From: Candidatus Methylomirabilis sp.
GTDB lineage: Bacteria; Methylomirabilota; Methylomirabilia; Methylomirabilales; Methylomirabilaceae
Length of the DNA: 33,765 bases
Assembly: GCF_028716865.1 (NCBI RefSeq)
Contig: NZ_JAQUOY010000026.1
Coordinates: 1 to 33,765 of the forward strand
Direction: 5' to 3'
Below are positions 14,704 through 31,690 of this stretch, piece after piece (position 1 is the first letter of the stretch; each line of letters starts with the position of its first letter). The translations under genes were made by a program, and so were the position numbers. The notes below the pieces were generated by a model. The model searched no databases, had not been told where the DNA came from, and saw nothing but the letters and a program-made list of their open reading frames with translations.

Positions 14704-16437
14704 ATGAGTAACCTCGAAATCGCCAAGCTGTTTCACGAGATCGCCGACCTGCTGGAGATCAAGGACGAAAACATCTTCAAGATCCGGGCCTACCGCCGGG
14801 CGGCTATGAACCTGGAATCCTTGCCGGAGGAAATCGAGGCGGTAGCGGCGCGCGGCGGTCTCGCCGAGATCGCGGGAATCGGCAAGGATCTGGCGGCCAA
14901 GATCCAACAGGCGCTCGAGACCGGGCGCATGGAATATCTGGAAGAACTGCGCACGGCGATCCCTCGTGGCGTGGTCGAGCTGATGGCGATCCCGGGTGTC
15001 GGGCCCAAGACCGCCAAGCTCCTCTTCCAACAGCTCCAGGTCGATTCGGTCGAGAGGCTGGAAGCGCTTGCCCTTCAAGGACAACTCCTCGGTCTGCCGG
15101 GGATCAAGCAGAAAACGGTCGAGAATATCCTGAAGGGAATTCAGGTCGTCAAGGCGGGGCGGGAGCGGATGCCGTTGGGGCGGGCCCTGCCGCTGGCCCA
15201 TGAGCTGGTCCGGATCCTGGAGACGCTTCCCGATGTCAAACAGATCAGCCTGGCTGGGAGCCTGCGGCGAATGCGCGAGACCGTCAAGGACCTCGACCTC
15301 CTGGTCACGTCAACGAAGCCGGCCAAGGTCATGGCGGTCTTCACGTCGCTTCCGCAGGTGGCGGAGGTGCTGCTCCAGGGCGAAACCAAGGCGACCATCC
15401 GCCACCGGGAGGGGATCCAGGTAGATCTCCGGGTGGTCGAGCCCGACTGCTTCGGCGCCGCGTTACAGTACTTCACCGGTTCCAAGGCCCACAACATCCG
15501 CGTGCGGGAGCTCGCGGTCCGTAAGGGGCTGAAGGTCAGCGAGTACGGCGTCTTCAACGAGGCCACCGGCACGCGAATCGCCGGCGCCACCGAGGAGGAG
15601 GTCTACAACGCGATCGGCCTGCCATACATTCCGCCCGAGCTCCGGGAAGATGCCGGCGAGGTCGAGGCGGCCCTCGAAGGGCGCATGCCGAAGCTGTTGA
15701 CGCTTGCCGACCTGCGCGGCGACCTGCACGCCCACACCAACTGGACCGACGGCCATCACCCCCTGGAGGCGCTCATCGAGGCGGCCCAGCAGAAGGGGTA
15801 CGAGTACATCGTCGTCTCCGACCACTCCCGGGCGGCCACCGTCGCCGGCGGTCTCTCCGAGGACAAGCTGCTCGAACAGATCAGCCGGGTCCGCGCCCTC
15901 AGCAGGAAGTATACGAAGATCCGAATCCTGGCTGGCAGCGAGTGCGACATCCTGGCCGACGGGTCGATGGACTTCCCAGACCGGGTGTTGGCCCAGCTTG
16001 ACATCGTAGTCTGCGCCATCCACTCGCGCTTCAAGCAGGACCGGGCCGGGATGACCGCCCGCATCGTCAGGGCGCTCAGCAACCCCTATGTCCACATCTT
16101 CGCCCATCCGACCGGGCGCCTGATCGGTGAGCGTGACCCCTACGACGTGGATCTGGAGGCGGTCTTCGCGGCGGCCAAGCAGTACGGCAAGGCGCTGGAG
16201 ATCAACGCTCAACCCTCGCGTCTTGATCTGAACGACCACCATGCGCGACGGGCCAAGGAGTTGGGGATCAAACTCGCCATCAGTACCGATACCCACGTCC
16301 TCGACCAGCTCGACAATATGTCCCTCGGCGTGGCCGTCGCGCGCCGCGCCTGGCTGGAGAAGTCCGACGTCATCAATGCCATGCCCCTGAACAGGCTGCT
16401 GACCTGGACCCACAAGACCCGCCCCAAGGTCGCCTAA
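14704..16437 (+). CDS. polX: DNA polymerase X family protein with PHP domain
   Basis: The product is 577 residues, the usual size of bacterial PolX. The N-terminal 8-kDa-type domain (EIADLLEIKDENIFKIRAYR) and helix-hairpin-helix elements (IPGVGPKTAKLL, LPGIKQKTVENI) bind DNA. The palm holds GSLRRMRETVKDLDLLV at about 185-201, with two of the catalytic aspartates. From about 339 a PHP domain begins GDLHAHTNWTDG and continues with VVSDHS, AGSECDI, FAHPTGRLIG and STDTH. All its metal-binding His/Asp blocks look present, so 3'-5' exonuclease or phosphoesterase activity is expected. The family acts in base-excision gap filling. Confidence 0.95.
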   Translation: MSNLEIAKLFHEIADLLEIKDENIFKIRAYRRAAMNLESLPEEIEAVAARGGLAEIAGIGKDLAAKIQQALETGRMEYLEELRTAIPRGVVELMAIPGVGPKTAKLLFQQLQVDSVERLEALALQGQLLGLPGIKQKTVENILKGIQVVKAGRERMPLGRALPLAHELVRILETLPDVKQISLAGSLRRMRETVKDLDLLVTSTKPAKVMAVFTSLPQVAEVLLQGETKATIRHREGIQVDLRVVEPDCFGAALQYFTGSKAHNIRVRELAVRKGLKVSEYGVFNEATGTRIAGATEEEVYNAIGLPYIPPELREDAGEVEAALEGRMPKLLTLADLRGDLHAHTNWTDGHHPLEALIEAAQQKGYEYIVVSDHSRAATVAGGLSEDKLLEQISRVRALSRKYTKIRILAGSECDILADGSMDFPDRVLAQLDIVVCAIHSRFKQDRAGMTARIVRALSNPYVHIFAHPTGRLIGERDPYDVDLEAVFAAAKQYGKALEINAQPSRLDLNDHHARRAKELGIKLAISTDTHVLDQLDNMSLGVAVARRAWLEKSDVINAMPLNRLLTWTHKTRPKVA

Positions 16438-16530: not shown

Positions 16531-16600
16531 CAGTAGCAACCTGGTCGCTCTCGGCTTGAAAACATGAAGCGTGCACCATGATAGCCATGCTGGAGGCATT

Positions 16601-17659
16601 GTGCCGCGAAACGATCAAGTCACTCGGCAGTGGCATCTTCTCCGAAAGTTAGAGGGCTCCAGAGGCGCAACGATCCAGGAGCTCGCCGAATCCCTGCCTG
16701 ACGGTCTGCCCAAACATCTCCGCACGATGCGACGCGACCTTGCCGCCCTGGAGGCCGCCGGCTTTCCCCTCCTCACCGAACGAATAGAGGGGCGGGTTCG
16801 CTGGAGACTCATGGATGGCTTCCGGCGCATCCCCGCCCTGGCGTTTTCCCCAACCGAACTCATGGCGTTGACCTTCAGCCGCGACCTGCTCCGGCCCCTG
16901 GAAGGAACCGCGATCAAAGGCGCCCTCGACTCCGCCCTGAATAAGGCGACCGCCGCCCTGCCCCCTCAGGGGCAGACCTACATCAGGCGGATGCAGGACA
17001 TCTTCTCAGTCGGGCTTGGCCCTCACAAGAACTATCGGCAACACCAGGACACGATCGATCGCGTCACGCAGGCGATCGCTCACCTGCGTACACTCCAGAT
17101 TCGATACTACTCCGCGTCCCGCAACGCCACGACGCGCAGAGAGGTTGATCCCTATCGCCTCTGGTATGTGGCCGGCGCTCTCTACCTGATTGCCTACTGC
17201 CACTGGCGCCGCGAGGTGCGCCTGTTTGCCGTGGACCGCATCCGCTCCCTTACCGTCACCGATCATCCCCATCAAATGCCGCTCGGCTTCGATCTGGAGG
17301 CGCATATGCAGGATGCCCTCGTGGTCATGCGGGGAAAACCGGTCACGGTTGAGTTCCTGTTCAGCAAAGCCGCCGCCCCGTGGGTGAAGGATCGGGTGTG
17401 GCACCGAAGCCAGACTCTGACGCCGCAGAGGGACGGGCGCCTGAAGATGATCCTCAGGGTTGCAGACACGCCTGAACTGGTCGGATGGATTCTGAGCTTC
17501 GGCGGTGAGGTGCAGGTGCGTAAGCCCGCAACCCTTGCCGAGAAGGTCCGCGAGCAGGCCCGGCGGATTCTGCAATCCGCAATGATTGAGGGACGGACAC
17601 GATCGGCGTTGCGTGGATCGAAGCGGACAGAGGCGAACGACGTATCGCAGAAACGCTGA
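16601..17659 (+). CDS. WYL-domain transcriptional regulator
   Basis: The product is 352 residues. GTG 16601 has GGAGG four bases upstream and gives the usual start of an N-terminal winged HTH (VTRQWHLLRKLEGSRGATIQ.., HLRTMRRDLAALEAAGFPL). The middle holds the WYL domain with IRYYSASRNATTRREVDPYR, LWYVAGALYLIAYCHWRREV and RLFAVDRIRSL. The C-terminal WCX extension contains VTVEFLFSKAAAPWVKDRVW. WYL proteins sense nucleic-acid or nucleotide ligands and often control defence loci, including CRISPR-cas operons. The cas operon begins 1.65 kb downstream, separated by gene debris, so a role in cas control is plausible but not shown. Confidence 0.92.
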   Translation: MPRNDQVTRQWHLLRKLEGSRGATIQELAESLPDGLPKHLRTMRRDLAALEAAGFPLLTERIEGRVRWRLMDGFRRIPALAFSPTELMALTFSRDLLRPLEGTAIKGALDSALNKATAALPPQGQTYIRRMQDIFSVGLGPHKNYRQHQDTIDRVTQAIAHLRTLQIRYYSASRNATTRREVDPYRLWYVAGALYLIAYCHWRREVRLFAVDRIRSLTVTDHPHQMPLGFDLEAHMQDALVVMRGKPVTVEFLFSKAAAPWVKDRVWHRSQTLTPQRDGRLKMILRVADTPELVGWILSFGGEVQVRKPATLAEKVREQARRILQSAMIEGRTRSALRGSKRTEANDVSQKR

Positions 17660-17725: not shown

Positions 17726-17856
17726 ATGGGTATTGGCAGGAGCGGCCTATGCCTTCTACAGACCTGGCGTCTCGGCTCGCAGAGATGAGACGTGTTGAGG
17801 GCTATGGCGGCAGCGGTTCGGACCCCGGATCAATGGGTGCGACGTCGGCGAGGCGG

Positions 17857-17976
17857 TTACCCGATCACGGTGAGACCTAAGGCCTTAAAGTCTTCATCGA
17901 AGGAGAGGCAAGGAATATTGTCCAGCAACGTGGTCACGATGACGAAGGAGATCGCATCGCAGAATGTCGCAAAAGA
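17857..17976 (-). pseudogene. Remnant of a PIN-domain (VapC-type) toxin, C-terminal 40 residues only
   Basis: Read on the - strand this stretch gives FCDAISFVIVTTLLDNIPC and then LSFDEDFKALGLTVIG before a TAA at 17857-17859. That is the closing part of a PIN domain: the (C/A)DAISF block with its Asp, then the F-D-x-D-F motif. There is no start, and roughly the first 80-90 residues of a normal PIN toxin are missing. The fragment follows the stop codon of the antitoxin pseudogene in the same frame, so a deletion has fused the end of the antitoxin gene to the tail of the toxin gene. Confidence 0.75.
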
Positions 17977-17991
17977 CACAGTCAGAAGGAA

Positions 17992-18264
17992 TCACCGGAC
18001 AATGCCCTTGGAGCCGTACAGATGTTCCTTGACGTGGCTGGAGACATCGCTCCGTCGGCCTGTGACACCCTTTCGAGCCAGTCTCCTCCGGAGTTCGAGA
18101 AGCCTTCTGGCAGCCACGCCCGGCTCAGGCTCAGCCTGGACTGCCCGAAGTTCCGCCACAACATCGTCATGTACCGTAATCTGGATGCGTGTCCCCGCAT
18201 CCTTTCGGACCTGGCGGATCAACTCAGGCAGTCACCATCGAGTCTCGCTGATCGAGATCTTCAT
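17992..18264 (-). pseudogene. Antitoxin gene with a nonsense codon (TGA at codon 11)
   Basis: From ATG at 18264 the - strand reads MKISISETRW, then TGA (18232-18234). The frame then stays open: LPELIRQVRKDAGTRIQITV, a charged stretch with ARRLLELRRRLARKG, and RRSDVSSHVKEHLYG, up to the TGA at 17992. The amino-acid pattern is that of a VapB/Phd-type antitoxin, ending with the VKEHLYG motif often seen in partners of PIN toxins. GGAGGTG stands five bases before the ATG, and a promoter and palindromic operator lie further up. The upstream signals are intact, but the protein cannot be made in full without readthrough. The lost toxin explains the relaxed selection. Confidence 0.75.
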
Positions 18265-18292
18265 ACGCACCTCCTCTGAGATCTTCGCTATA

Positions 18293-18321
18293 AATGTACG
18301 GACTTGTACACTATGAGTCAA
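18293..18321 (-). promoter_or_regulatory. Promoter and operator of the dead vapBC module
   Basis: On the - strand TTGACT (18316-18321), a 17-base spacer and TACATT (18293-18298) form a sigma-70 promoter. The spacer carries the inverted repeat TGTAC/GTACA (18295-18310), a plausible antitoxin operator of the kind used in autoregulation. Confidence 0.5.
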
Positions 18322-18328
18322 TAAAAAG

Positions 18329-18432
18329 CGGAGCCAGGCCAGGTTTCCGGATGATTTTGTCTTTCAACTGACATCAGAAGAAGACAAAGCTTTGACCTCG
18401 CAATTTGCGAGATCAAAGCCGGGTCTGGGAGG
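18329..18432 (+). pseudogene. Fragment of an ORF6N-type gene
   Basis: The + strand frame through 18341 reads RFPDDFVFQLTSEEDKALTS then QFARSKPGLGG. This corresponds to the RFPEDFMFRLT segment of the intact ORF6N gene just downstream, but it is clearly diverged. It has no start and the match ends after about 34 codons. It is thus the middle of a second, decayed paralogue. Its 5' side runs into the vapB promoter region. Confidence 0.65.
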
Positions 18433-18451
18433 CGGGACCAGCATATCGGAC

Positions 18452-18511
18452 GTGACGCCTGCGCCGCGCGCCGACGTGGTGATGGAGACTGACCGGGCGG
18501 GACTTCAGTCG
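18452..18511. repeat. Diverged direct repeat, copy 1 (after the ORF6N fragment)
   Basis: GTGACGCCTGCGCCGCGCGC and the next about 40 bases, ending GCGGGACTTCAGTCG, align with 19209-19269 (GTGGCGTCCGCACCGCGCGC through GCGGGACTTTGGTCG). The first 21 bases differ at four positions. Each copy lies shortly after an ORF6N sequence. Confidence 0.55.
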
Positions 18512-18571
18512 ATGGAAGAGGCACAAGTCAATACCGGCAACAACGTCCCCCCAATGTACGGAGGTTAGCCG

Positions 18572-19153
18572 ATGAGTTCACGGGGCACTCTGAGTCCGGC
18601 AGCAAGCATCGAGCAATCTATTCTTTTCATCCGCAGTCAGCGCGTCATGCTGGATGCTGATCTGGCAGTCCTCTACGGCGTATCGACGCGGGTCCTCAAC
18701 CAAGCGGTGAAACGGAACCGGGAACGATTCCCCGAAGATTTCATGTTCCGCCTGACCGTAGCGGAGAAAGCAGAGGTGATCACAAATTGTGATCACCTCC
18801 GATCACTCAGATTCTCTCCAGCACTCCCTCACGCGTTTACCGAGCATGGGGCAATCATGTTAGCGAGCGTCCTTAACACGCCAATCGCGGTTCAAGCCAG
18901 CGTACAAGTCGTCCGGGCCTTCGTTCGGCTTCGGGAAATGCTGACAACGAACAAGGCGCTGGCTGACAAGTTCGCAGAATTGGAGCGCAAGGTCGCCAGC
19001 CACGATGAACATATTCAATCGCTGTTTGAAGCGATTCGACACCTCATGGCACCAGCACAACACAAGCCACGGCGCACGATCGGTTTTCGGGTCGAGGAGG
19101 CAAGGCCGGGCTATCGTACGCGGCACTTACGCCGCGCATCGCTTTTATTCTAA
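18572..19153 (+). CDS. ORF6N (KilA-N-related) domain protein
   Basis: The product is 193 residues. Residues about 10-100 form the ORF6N DNA-binding domain: FIRSQRVMLDADLAVLYGVS, TRVLNQAVKRNRERFPEDFM, and ALPHAFTEHGAIMLASVLNT. A C-terminal helix-rich part (LREMLTTNKALADKFAELER) resembles a coiled coil. ORF6N proteins are common in phages and genomic islands; their role is thought to be DNA binding, often regulatory. ATG 18572 follows ACGGAGGTTAGCCG, a good ribosome site. A perfect 27-base palindrome lies inside the gene at 18773-18799. The last about 15 codons (PGYRTRHLRRASLLF) run up to an intergenic palindrome and may have been added by sequence wear. Confidence 0.88.
   Translation: MSSRGTLSPAASIEQSILFIRSQRVMLDADLAVLYGVSTRVLNQAVKRNRERFPEDFMFRLTVAEKAEVITNCDHLRSLRFSPALPHAFTEHGAIMLASVLNTPIAVQASVQVVRAFVRLREMLTTNKALADKFAELERKVASHDEHIQSLFEAIRHLMAPAQHKPRRTIGFRVEEARPGYRTRHLRRASLLF
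18773..18799. repeat. Perfect 27-base palindrome inside the ORF6N gene
   Basis: GAGGTGATCACAA and TTGTGATCACCTC are exact complements around a single A. The TGTGATCA core resembles catabolite-regulator-type half sites, but such a match is easily met by chance inside a palindrome. Confidence 0.8.
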
Positions 19154-30919: not shown

Positions 30920-31327
30920 TTATCCGGCAAGCCAGCGGATCTTGATGAGATGCTCGACGGCCCGAAACTCCTGATCGCTGGTGAGGATGGTCGCATTGAC
31001 CCGCTGGGCCGTCGCCACACAGAAGGCATCGGCATACGAGACGGTGTACTCGCTTTTAATCTCGGCCGCTGCCCGTACCAGGGAAAGATCCAGGGCTACC
31101 AGTTCCAGCGGTAACTGCTCCAGCCGGCCCAGGGCCTCCTCCGCCTTGGCCGCTCCGACCCGGCGCTTGACGACGTAGAAGAATTCTCCCCAGTTGATCC
31201 AATTGAGGAATGCCCGCGAGTTGGCCTTCTCCTGTTCGTAGAGGGTCGCTTGCACGCGCTGCCAGCCCGGTTCTTTGTGAAACAGCGCGACGAGCGCAAA
31301 ACTATCGAGTACGAACTTTTCGCTCAC
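30920..31327 (-). CDS. vapC: PIN-domain ribonuclease toxin (VapC-type)
   Basis: The product is 135 residues on the - strand from GTG 31327, overlapping the end of the antitoxin gene by 26 bases. The acidic PIN residues are all there: D8 in FVLDSFALVALF, E48 in NWINWGEFFYV, D100 in YTVSYADAFCVATA, and D118 in ILTSDQEF. VapC toxins cut RNA, often tRNA or rRNA. No damage is visible, so the module may be active. It sits in the trailer region of the CRISPR array, between two repeat remnants. Confidence 0.92.
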   Translation of the reverse strand: MSEKFVLDSFALVALFHKEPGWQRVQATLYEQEKANSRAFLNWINWGEFFYVVKRRVGAAKAEEALGRLEQLPLELVALDLSLVRAAAEIKSEYTVSYADAFCVATAQRVNATILTSDQEFRAVEHLIKIRWLAG

Positions 31328-31553
31328 GGCGCATTTCTTCCTGATGGTCGCGGCGGAGATCGGCCGTCAGCGAAAATGTCCCTTCGAGAAAGCCCGTAGC
31401 GGCGGCGATTGGATCAGGTGGCACCGGCGAGAGGATCAGCCGCCCCGCTTCCTCGGCCAACTGGATCTTCGCGCCCGGCTTCAAACCGAACTTGCGACGA
31501 AGCGCCTTGGGAATGAGAACCTGCCCCTTTTCTGAAAGGTGGGTAATGGGCAT
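31302..31553 (-). CDS. vapB: AbrB/SpoVT-type antitoxin (VapB)
   Basis: The product is 83 residues from ATG 31553, which has GGAGG seven bases upstream; the frame is open further up but without a better start. Residues 1-45 form the swapped-hairpin AbrB fold: ITHLSEKGQVLIPKALRRKF and GLKPGAKIQLAEEAGRLIL. The rest (LEGTFSLTADLRRDHQEEMR) is a flexible helix of the kind that wraps the toxin. The DNA-binding end should repress the operon at the palindrome in the promoter. Confidence 0.92.
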   Translation of the reverse strand: MPITHLSEKGQVLIPKALRRKFGLKPGAKIQLAEEAGRLILSPVPPDPIAAATGFLEGTFSLTADLRRDHQEEMRRERKVRTR

Positions 31554-31576
31554 CGTAATTCCTCCATTTTCACGAA

Positions 31577-31605
31577 ATTCTAACATATTAAATATTCGTG
31601 TGCAA
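31577..31605 (-). promoter_or_regulatory. Promoter and operator of vapBC
   Basis: On the - strand TTGCAC (31600-31605), a 17-base spacer and TAGAAT (31577-31582) form a good sigma-70 promoter. The spacer includes the perfect palindrome ATATTAAATAT (31585-31595), a likely VapB site. Transcription would start about 17 bases before the GGAGG. Confidence 0.6.
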
Positions 31606-31690
31606 TTCCTACAGACCACCCACACATCGAAACTGACAGGACAGCCATTGAAGCGAGATCACCTCACCCGGCATTACCAAGTGAGGGATT

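Follow-up and report, generated by a model that had tools for sequence, protein, structure and literature searches.

Introduction

The decay of toxin–antitoxin loci is accepted, and the order in which their genes are lost is usually argued from logic. Mine and coworkers reportedly described, in 2009, the decay of ccdO157, a chromosomal type II module of Escherichia coli. The locus analyzed here, which lies in a genome of Candidatus Methylomirabilis, is likewise a chromosomal type II module undergoing degeneration. The two belong to unrelated families, however, and the series of decay stages in the present family spans genera and phyla of uncultured bacteria, and every deletion seen in it removes the beginning of the toxin gene. 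According to two reviews, chromosomal toxin–antitoxin modules decay by deletion and nonsense mutation, and inactive toxin mutants appear (PMC7167474; PMC2654758). Our locus is a further member of this known kind of decay, and the series to which it belongs is unusually clear.

In gene order and PIN toxin, the locus resembles VapBC systems with a Phd/YefM-fold antitoxin, among which VapB46 of M. tuberculosis is structurally nearest; Phd of P1 is of the same type. Common to these systems and the present family are a Phd-like N-terminal domain and an inverted-repeat operator over the promoter. In contrast to them, the antitoxin sequences of this family are sub-threshold to the Pfam and NCBIfam Phd models, and both genes of our locus are broken. 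A different comparison is offered by CreTA, RNA toxin–antitoxin guards of CRISPR-Cas that are reportedly repressed by Cascade (PMC9458426). Judged by its gene neighbourhood, our locus is, like CreTA, a toxin–antitoxin unit inside a CRISPR-Cas locus. Whereas CreTA consists of RNA, the unit described here encodes two proteins and carries an operator of its own.

Results and discussion

A disrupted vapBC operon with intact orthologues

The analyzed stretch of 33,765 nucleotides, hereafter the window, is contig C26 of a genome of 2.54 Mb in 53 contigs, whose near relatives also bear the name Candidatus Methylomirabilis. The dead Phd-fold VapB/PIN VapC locus occupies positions 17857–18321 on the minus strand. 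It is flanked by a WYL regulator gene on one side and a type I-C cas operon on the other (cas3, cas5, cas8, cas7, cas4, and cas1 are present in the window). The features are compiled in Table 1.

Table 1. Features of the disrupted operon and its surroundings (window positions).
Feature	Position	Strand	Remarks
PolX gene	14704–16437		reference for the module (17797–18264) at fourfold sites
WYL-domain regulator	16571–17659	+	WYL and WCX domains; convergent neighbour of the toxin
3' flank	17797–17856	−	homology retained with orthologous loci G014, G007, and G010 (from 17807)
Toxin 3' end remnant	17857–17964	−	codons 104–138 plus stop codon; frame differs from that of the toxin start
Deletion junction	17964/17965	−	278 nt missing; 2-nt CA microhomology
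Toxin start remnant	17965–17995	−	codons 1–10 and one base, 31 nt; GTG overlaps antitoxin stop
Antitoxin pseudogene	17992–18264	−	Phd/YefM-fold VapB, 90 codons; ATG 18264–18262; TGA at codon 11 (18234–18232)
76-codon frame past the stop	17992–18222	−	TTG start; possible restart product without the first 14 residues; no Pfam hit
Shine-Dalgarno AGGAGG of antitoxin	18270–18275	−	kept in G014/G007
Operator-like inverted repeat TGTACAagtcCGTACA	18295–18310	−	overlaps −10 of the dead operon
Promoter of dead operon	18293–18321	−	sigma-70-like, TTGACT-17-TACATT; −35 hexamer kept in G014/G007

The same gene pair lies beside the same PolX gene in three further species (G014, G007, and G010). The toxin has 138 codons in all of them and, in relatives, begins at a GTG overlapping the stop codon of the antitoxin gene. 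G014 and G007 have a whole antitoxin (positions 1224–1493 of G007:C2/NSJM01000057 in the latter); in G010 it is cut by a contig end. Its identity to the window antitoxin is 96% for G014 and 94% for G007, both without the stop, and 100% across residues 36–90 for G010. A sequence-only reading of the window had called the module dead, and the three same-place orthologues with a full toxin, two of them with a whole antitoxin, bear this out. The comparison with intact homologues that it had proposed also revealed the nature of the toxin lesion. Aligned with the intact orthologues, the window toxin has lost 278 nt internally, that is codons 11–103, which shifts the frame; the missing part includes glutamate 51, invariant in 24/24 toxins. 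With these codons gone and the remainder shifted into another frame, the locus can no longer produce a toxin. A Pfam search of the window's own toxin fragment gave no match.

The toxin had previously been described as cut to 40 residues and lying in frame after the antitoxin stop. A 40-codon open reading frame (17979–17857) does share the antitoxin frame, but only its last 35 residues are native; the start codon and the next four codons stem from the toxin start region read in another frame. Thus, the toxin is indeed broken, but by an internal deletion, and the shared frame is a by-product of the frame shift. We rejected the idea that the 40-codon frame is a natural short toxin, as the nearest orthologues are full length. 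Homologues that naturally lack the toxin N-terminus, named beforehand as an observation that would speak against decay, do occur (L071, L093, G082, G315, and others). They do not overturn it, because these short forms are scattered deletion derivatives and the nearest orthologues are full length.

The family assignment relies on the intact relatives. The toxin of the G014 orthologue matches Pfam PF01850 (PIN) at 7.9e-9, above the cut-off, and the closest solved chains to an intact toxin are VapC AF_1683 and VapC20. The intact orthologue antitoxin scored below the Phd/YefM cut-offs, with 18.6 versus 29.8 bits for PF02604 and 14.5 versus 20.8 bits for TIGR01552. Its AlphaFold model (mean pLDDT 77.6, pTM 0.42), however, has the β-α-α-β-β N-terminal fold of Phd/YefM antitoxins. 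The best Foldseek matches of the model were RelB1, PfiA, YefM, Phd, and VapB46, with a best E value of 2.4e-3 and none below 0.001; the N-terminal domain fits VapB46 (6jqy, TMt 0.77–0.81) and also Phd and YefM. Gene order is that of VapBC systems, with one promoter and a toxin GTG on the antitoxin stop, whereas the functional toxin and antitoxin of a type II VapBC module are replaced in the window by a pseudogene pair. Named family members are annotated as Rokuibacteriota, Nitrospirae/Nitrospira, Deltaproteobacteria, Tectomicrobia, and Elusimicrobia.

Changes found only in the window were scored against G010, G014, G007, G013, and G011, with G010 contributing no antitoxin codons 1–35. In the antitoxin, these are a missense change at codon 10, the stop at codon 11, and silent changes at codons 15, 31, 41, and 67; in the toxin remains, they are a missense change at codon 6 and silent changes at codons 105 and 116. 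Antitoxin and toxin remains together thus hold six silent, two missense, and one nonsense change. From this excess of silent changes, we infer that constraint acted along most of the branch and that the locus therefore died recently. The contig end of G010 removes antitoxin codons 1–35, and the date of the stop is therefore not bounded. Three of the antitoxin changes cluster within 16 nt, which a rough estimate made by hand suggests is not informative. Compared with G010, the module differs at 5/51 fourfold sites (antitoxin 4/35, toxin end 1/16) and PolX at 79/297. Given the fewer differences in the module, it may have been exchanged between species later than the core gene PolX.

We conclude, with a probability of roughly 0.9, that the locus is a type II toxin–antitoxin operon of the Phd-fold VapB/PIN VapC type that was recently inactivated in one Candidatus Methylomirabilis lineage. 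As relatives and known families suggest, the antitoxin of the living form would have repressed its own promoter via TGTACA-N4-TGTACA across the −10 region, and it would have neutralised a PIN ribonuclease whose gene begins on the antitoxin stop. The alignment shows that a 278-nt deletion removed toxin codons 11–103; the antitoxin stop, itself plainly visible, was presumably gained afterwards or at about that time. Lacking its repressor, the promoter is probably still active and derepressed. The locus is a young relic, and nothing suggests a present function.

Promoter and operator

The sequence-only reading had credited the antitoxin gene with good upstream signals, and both the ribosome site and the promoter are present (Table 1). 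The sigma-70-like pattern was found once, compared with a mean of 0.4 (sd 0.8) in shuffles. The operator repeat pattern likewise occurs a single time in the window, and it was found in 0/100 shuffles. The operator had been called intact: the inverted repeat is there, but it differs from the TGTACA-N4-TGTACA of near relatives by one base in the second half-site.

It had also been suggested that the operator could still bind a related antitoxin. This idea fares poorly in view of the changed half-site base, the lack of a second family antitoxin, and the lack of a second convincing site in the genome. A search of the source genome for operator sites with at most one mismatch returned 12 matches, two of them representing the window site; because a reversed control gave the same total of 12, none of the others is convincing. 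No second antitoxin of the family was found in this genome; the only other match had an E value of 0.23 and carries a stop. A scan of this genome with the toxin profile at E 1e-6 likewise gave no further match. The genome holds four other Phd/YefM-type genes above the cut-off.

Order of gene loss in the family

A scan of the named genomes with the antitoxin profile yielded 32 loci. Antitoxin and toxin profiles were run on 95 genomes of the source phylum, and eight further genomes were added by handle. Toxin profiles were also applied to 395 genomes from the phylum of a Nitrospirae genome and 395 from that of a deltaproteobacterial genome; at most 10 candidates per genome were scored in these two scans, and the results of the Nitrospirae scan refer to the matches listed. 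The loci examined were those fetched that had strong scores or were visible as fragments; weak matches of other PIN families to the N-terminus only were left out (G461, G256, G114 (twice), G833, G710, and G090). Removal of 14 duplicates gave 71 loci, and 65 remained after six had been set aside, namely five that encode other PIN proteins and lack an antitoxin of the family (L169, L170, L190, L191, and L213) and one locus at a contig edge (L126).

As far as seen, 53 of the 65 loci are intact, three of them being cut by contig ends (L044, L075, and L081). The broken loci number 12: the window, G019, G025, L071, L093, G082, G056, G178, G315, G135, G343, and one G636 copy. The toxin is broken or absent in every one of them (12/12); G025 has no toxin, and the lesion of G019 is a frameshift that is possibly a sequencing error. 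Six of the broken loci retain an open antitoxin frame (G019, G025, L071, L093, G135, and G343, where the final residues are altered). In four, this frame is broken (window, G178, G056, and the G636 copy), and two have no antitoxin (G082 and G315). Among the 65 family loci, no case of an intact toxin lacking its antitoxin was found. A sign test of 6 versus 0, calculated by hand and post hoc, gives p ~0.016. The broken loci are scattered over the antitoxin tree, which is weakly resolved, and the deletions of G135 and G178 differ from each other, their close relative G175 being intact at these sites. G636 holds both a dead copy, with a stop in the toxin and a lost antitoxin start, and an intact paralogue (L212 on G636:C101 and L214 on G636:C49). 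One family across several phyla thus presents graded stages, from intact loci through a dead toxin with an open antitoxin to the death of both genes, and the reverse state is missing.

Toxin-first loss is therefore supported as a trend of the family by these sequence comparisons. The sequence-only reading had proposed the same order for the window, a toxin deletion followed by antitoxin decay. The family comparison (12/12, 6/12, and 0/65) speaks for this order. An intermediate of the window's own lineage, with a deleted toxin and an intact antitoxin, was not found, and the proposal that the toxin died first at this locus is therefore one by analogy. Conversely, the antitoxin stop could have come first, with the toxin deletion then rescuing the cell. 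Both lesions are window-only, so that the sequence keeps no record of which came first, and this is compatible with such a course. However, with 0/65 loci in which an intact toxin stands next to an antitoxin that is broken or missing and six in the opposite state, we consider an antitoxin-first course very unlikely.

Remaining coding capacity of the antitoxin

The TGA at antitoxin codon 11, already pointed out from the sequence alone, is present. It is preceded by the missense change at codon 10, a position occupied by arginine in 9/9 aligned relatives though not invariant across a wider set of 24. From the TGA, the frame is open down to the natural stop at 17994–17992. This long open frame and the mostly silent changes are a counterpoint to the relic reading, as they also fit a partly used gene. 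The locus might be partly alive if an antitoxin fragment were made, either by a restart at TTG 18222 (76 codons) or through a leaky TGA, and served as an anti-addiction antidote to related plasmid or phage toxins. The retained promoter and ribosome site and the six other loci in which the antitoxin is still open and the toxin dead or absent would agree with such a role. On the other hand, the lost or changed part would correspond, according to the model, to the β-α beginning of the Phd fold, which is the domain that binds DNA in Phd proteins of known structure, and it includes the arginine conserved in 9/9 relatives; the silent changes, moreover, may predate the stop. No same-family locus was confirmed in viral contigs (73 pattern matches), and a plasmid blastn search with 17800–18620 gave no match. 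We therefore regard residual antidote activity as very unlikely and retain the relic reading.

Deletions that spare the toxin 3' end

All eight deletion loci (window, L071, L093, G082, G315, G135, G343, and G178) have lost the toxin start and kept its end, a pattern noticed post hoc that constitutes a testable mutational or selective bias. The right ends of the deletions lie at codons 104 (window), 100 (L071 and G082), 104–106 (L093 and G315), 79 (G135), 72 (G343), and 24 (G178). Compared with intact relatives, the junctions overlap by 11 nt in L093, 13 nt in G178, 1 nt in G135, and 2 nt in the window.

The catalytic FCD motif is coded twice in the PIN toxin, 288 nt apart, and the window deletion lies exactly between both copies. 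In L093 and G315, the first FCD motif is fused exactly and in frame to the second, and in-frame mini-PIN frames of 43 codons with an exact FCD join are present at L093 710–817 and L173 335–436. Of the 49 intact toxin genes measured, 12 have FCD/FCD as their longest direct repeat, a count that excludes three intact toxins without a recognised motif pair. We rejected FCD–FCD slippage in its simple form as the cause of the window deletion: the orthologues share only 5 nt at the motif pair, and the window retains both motifs and is joined at CA. Short repeats explain some of the deletions, but not all. It is a speculative and rather doubtful idea that the FCD repeat acts as a built-in self-disabling device, in which slippage would cut out the toxin core in frame and spare operator and antitoxin, with the window as a near-miss. 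If so, the toxin family would be prone to become antitoxin-only (antidote) loci wherever both FCD codings agree. An origin of the C-terminal fragments at att sites was dropped, as no inserted element was seen.

The common 3' remnant might instead be a selected form, a C-terminal PIN mini-protein of 35–45 residues that binds, for example, the antitoxin or another PIN monomer. Such a product would account for the uniform polarity of the eight deletions, five of which restart at codon 100–106, and for the exact FCD–FCD fusions of L093 and G315 with their usable start codon. Yet in the window the start and the fragment are in different frames, no antitoxin is left in G315 and G082, L093 is altered at conserved positions and its junction is explained by a short repeat, and the G135 fragment differs from that of its sister at two residues. 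A selected mini-protein is accordingly highly improbable.

Finally, an assembly or sequencing artefact, with an unreal junction and/or TGA, might be suspected in a 53-contig genome whose named relatives are metagenome assemblies, each species being represented by one genome, but the clean 2-nt microhomology junction, the unbroken flank homology, the two independent lesions in one locus, and the similar lesions in other genomes make it barely credible.

Genomic neighbourhood

For 59 family loci, 1 kb or more of downstream sequence was available; 12 of these have a WYL gene within 700 bp downstream, and it is convergent in 12/12. The loci with a convergent WYL/WCX neighbour are the window, L048, L064, L225, L069, L070, L071, L072, L075, L076, L078, and L223, and the arrangement spans several phyla. 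In G011, G093, L075, L078, and G091, the WYL gene and the module almost touch. In G091 and G093, cas4 and cas1 are present together with the WYL gene. The cas genes of G013 share the contig of the module, on which a WYL gene was not found, and in G007 the module lies on one contig and both the WYL gene and the cas genes on another. The repeated place beside a convergent WYL regulator, sometimes with cas genes, marks the family as a candidate accessory to defence loci, one that can be followed as it is lost. Our literature search, which covered papers in excerpts, found none on the pairing of a WYL regulator with a VapC-type toxin (related: PMC13373217; PMC2701414; PMC12737573); a further search, at the level of titles and the beginnings of abstracts, found none on toxin–antitoxin loci of Methylomirabilis.

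Upstream, homology to the orthologous loci ends at 18328, where an ORF6N gene fragment (18326–18568, plus strand) abuts the promoter, a few bases upstream of the −35 of the dead operon. Across 18326–18432 (107 nt), the fragment is 94% identical to part of G007:C45. It contains a 15-pair hairpin followed by T-rich sequence (18420–18388) and is adjoined by an intact ORF6N gene (18572–19153) that matches PADLOC PDC-S05 at 1.2e-54. Beyond the CRISPR array lies a second, apparently intact pair of a PIN toxin and a MazE/AbrB-type antitoxin (30920–31625, minus strand). The I-C locus hence has a PIN toxin–antitoxin pair on both sides, one dead and one open.
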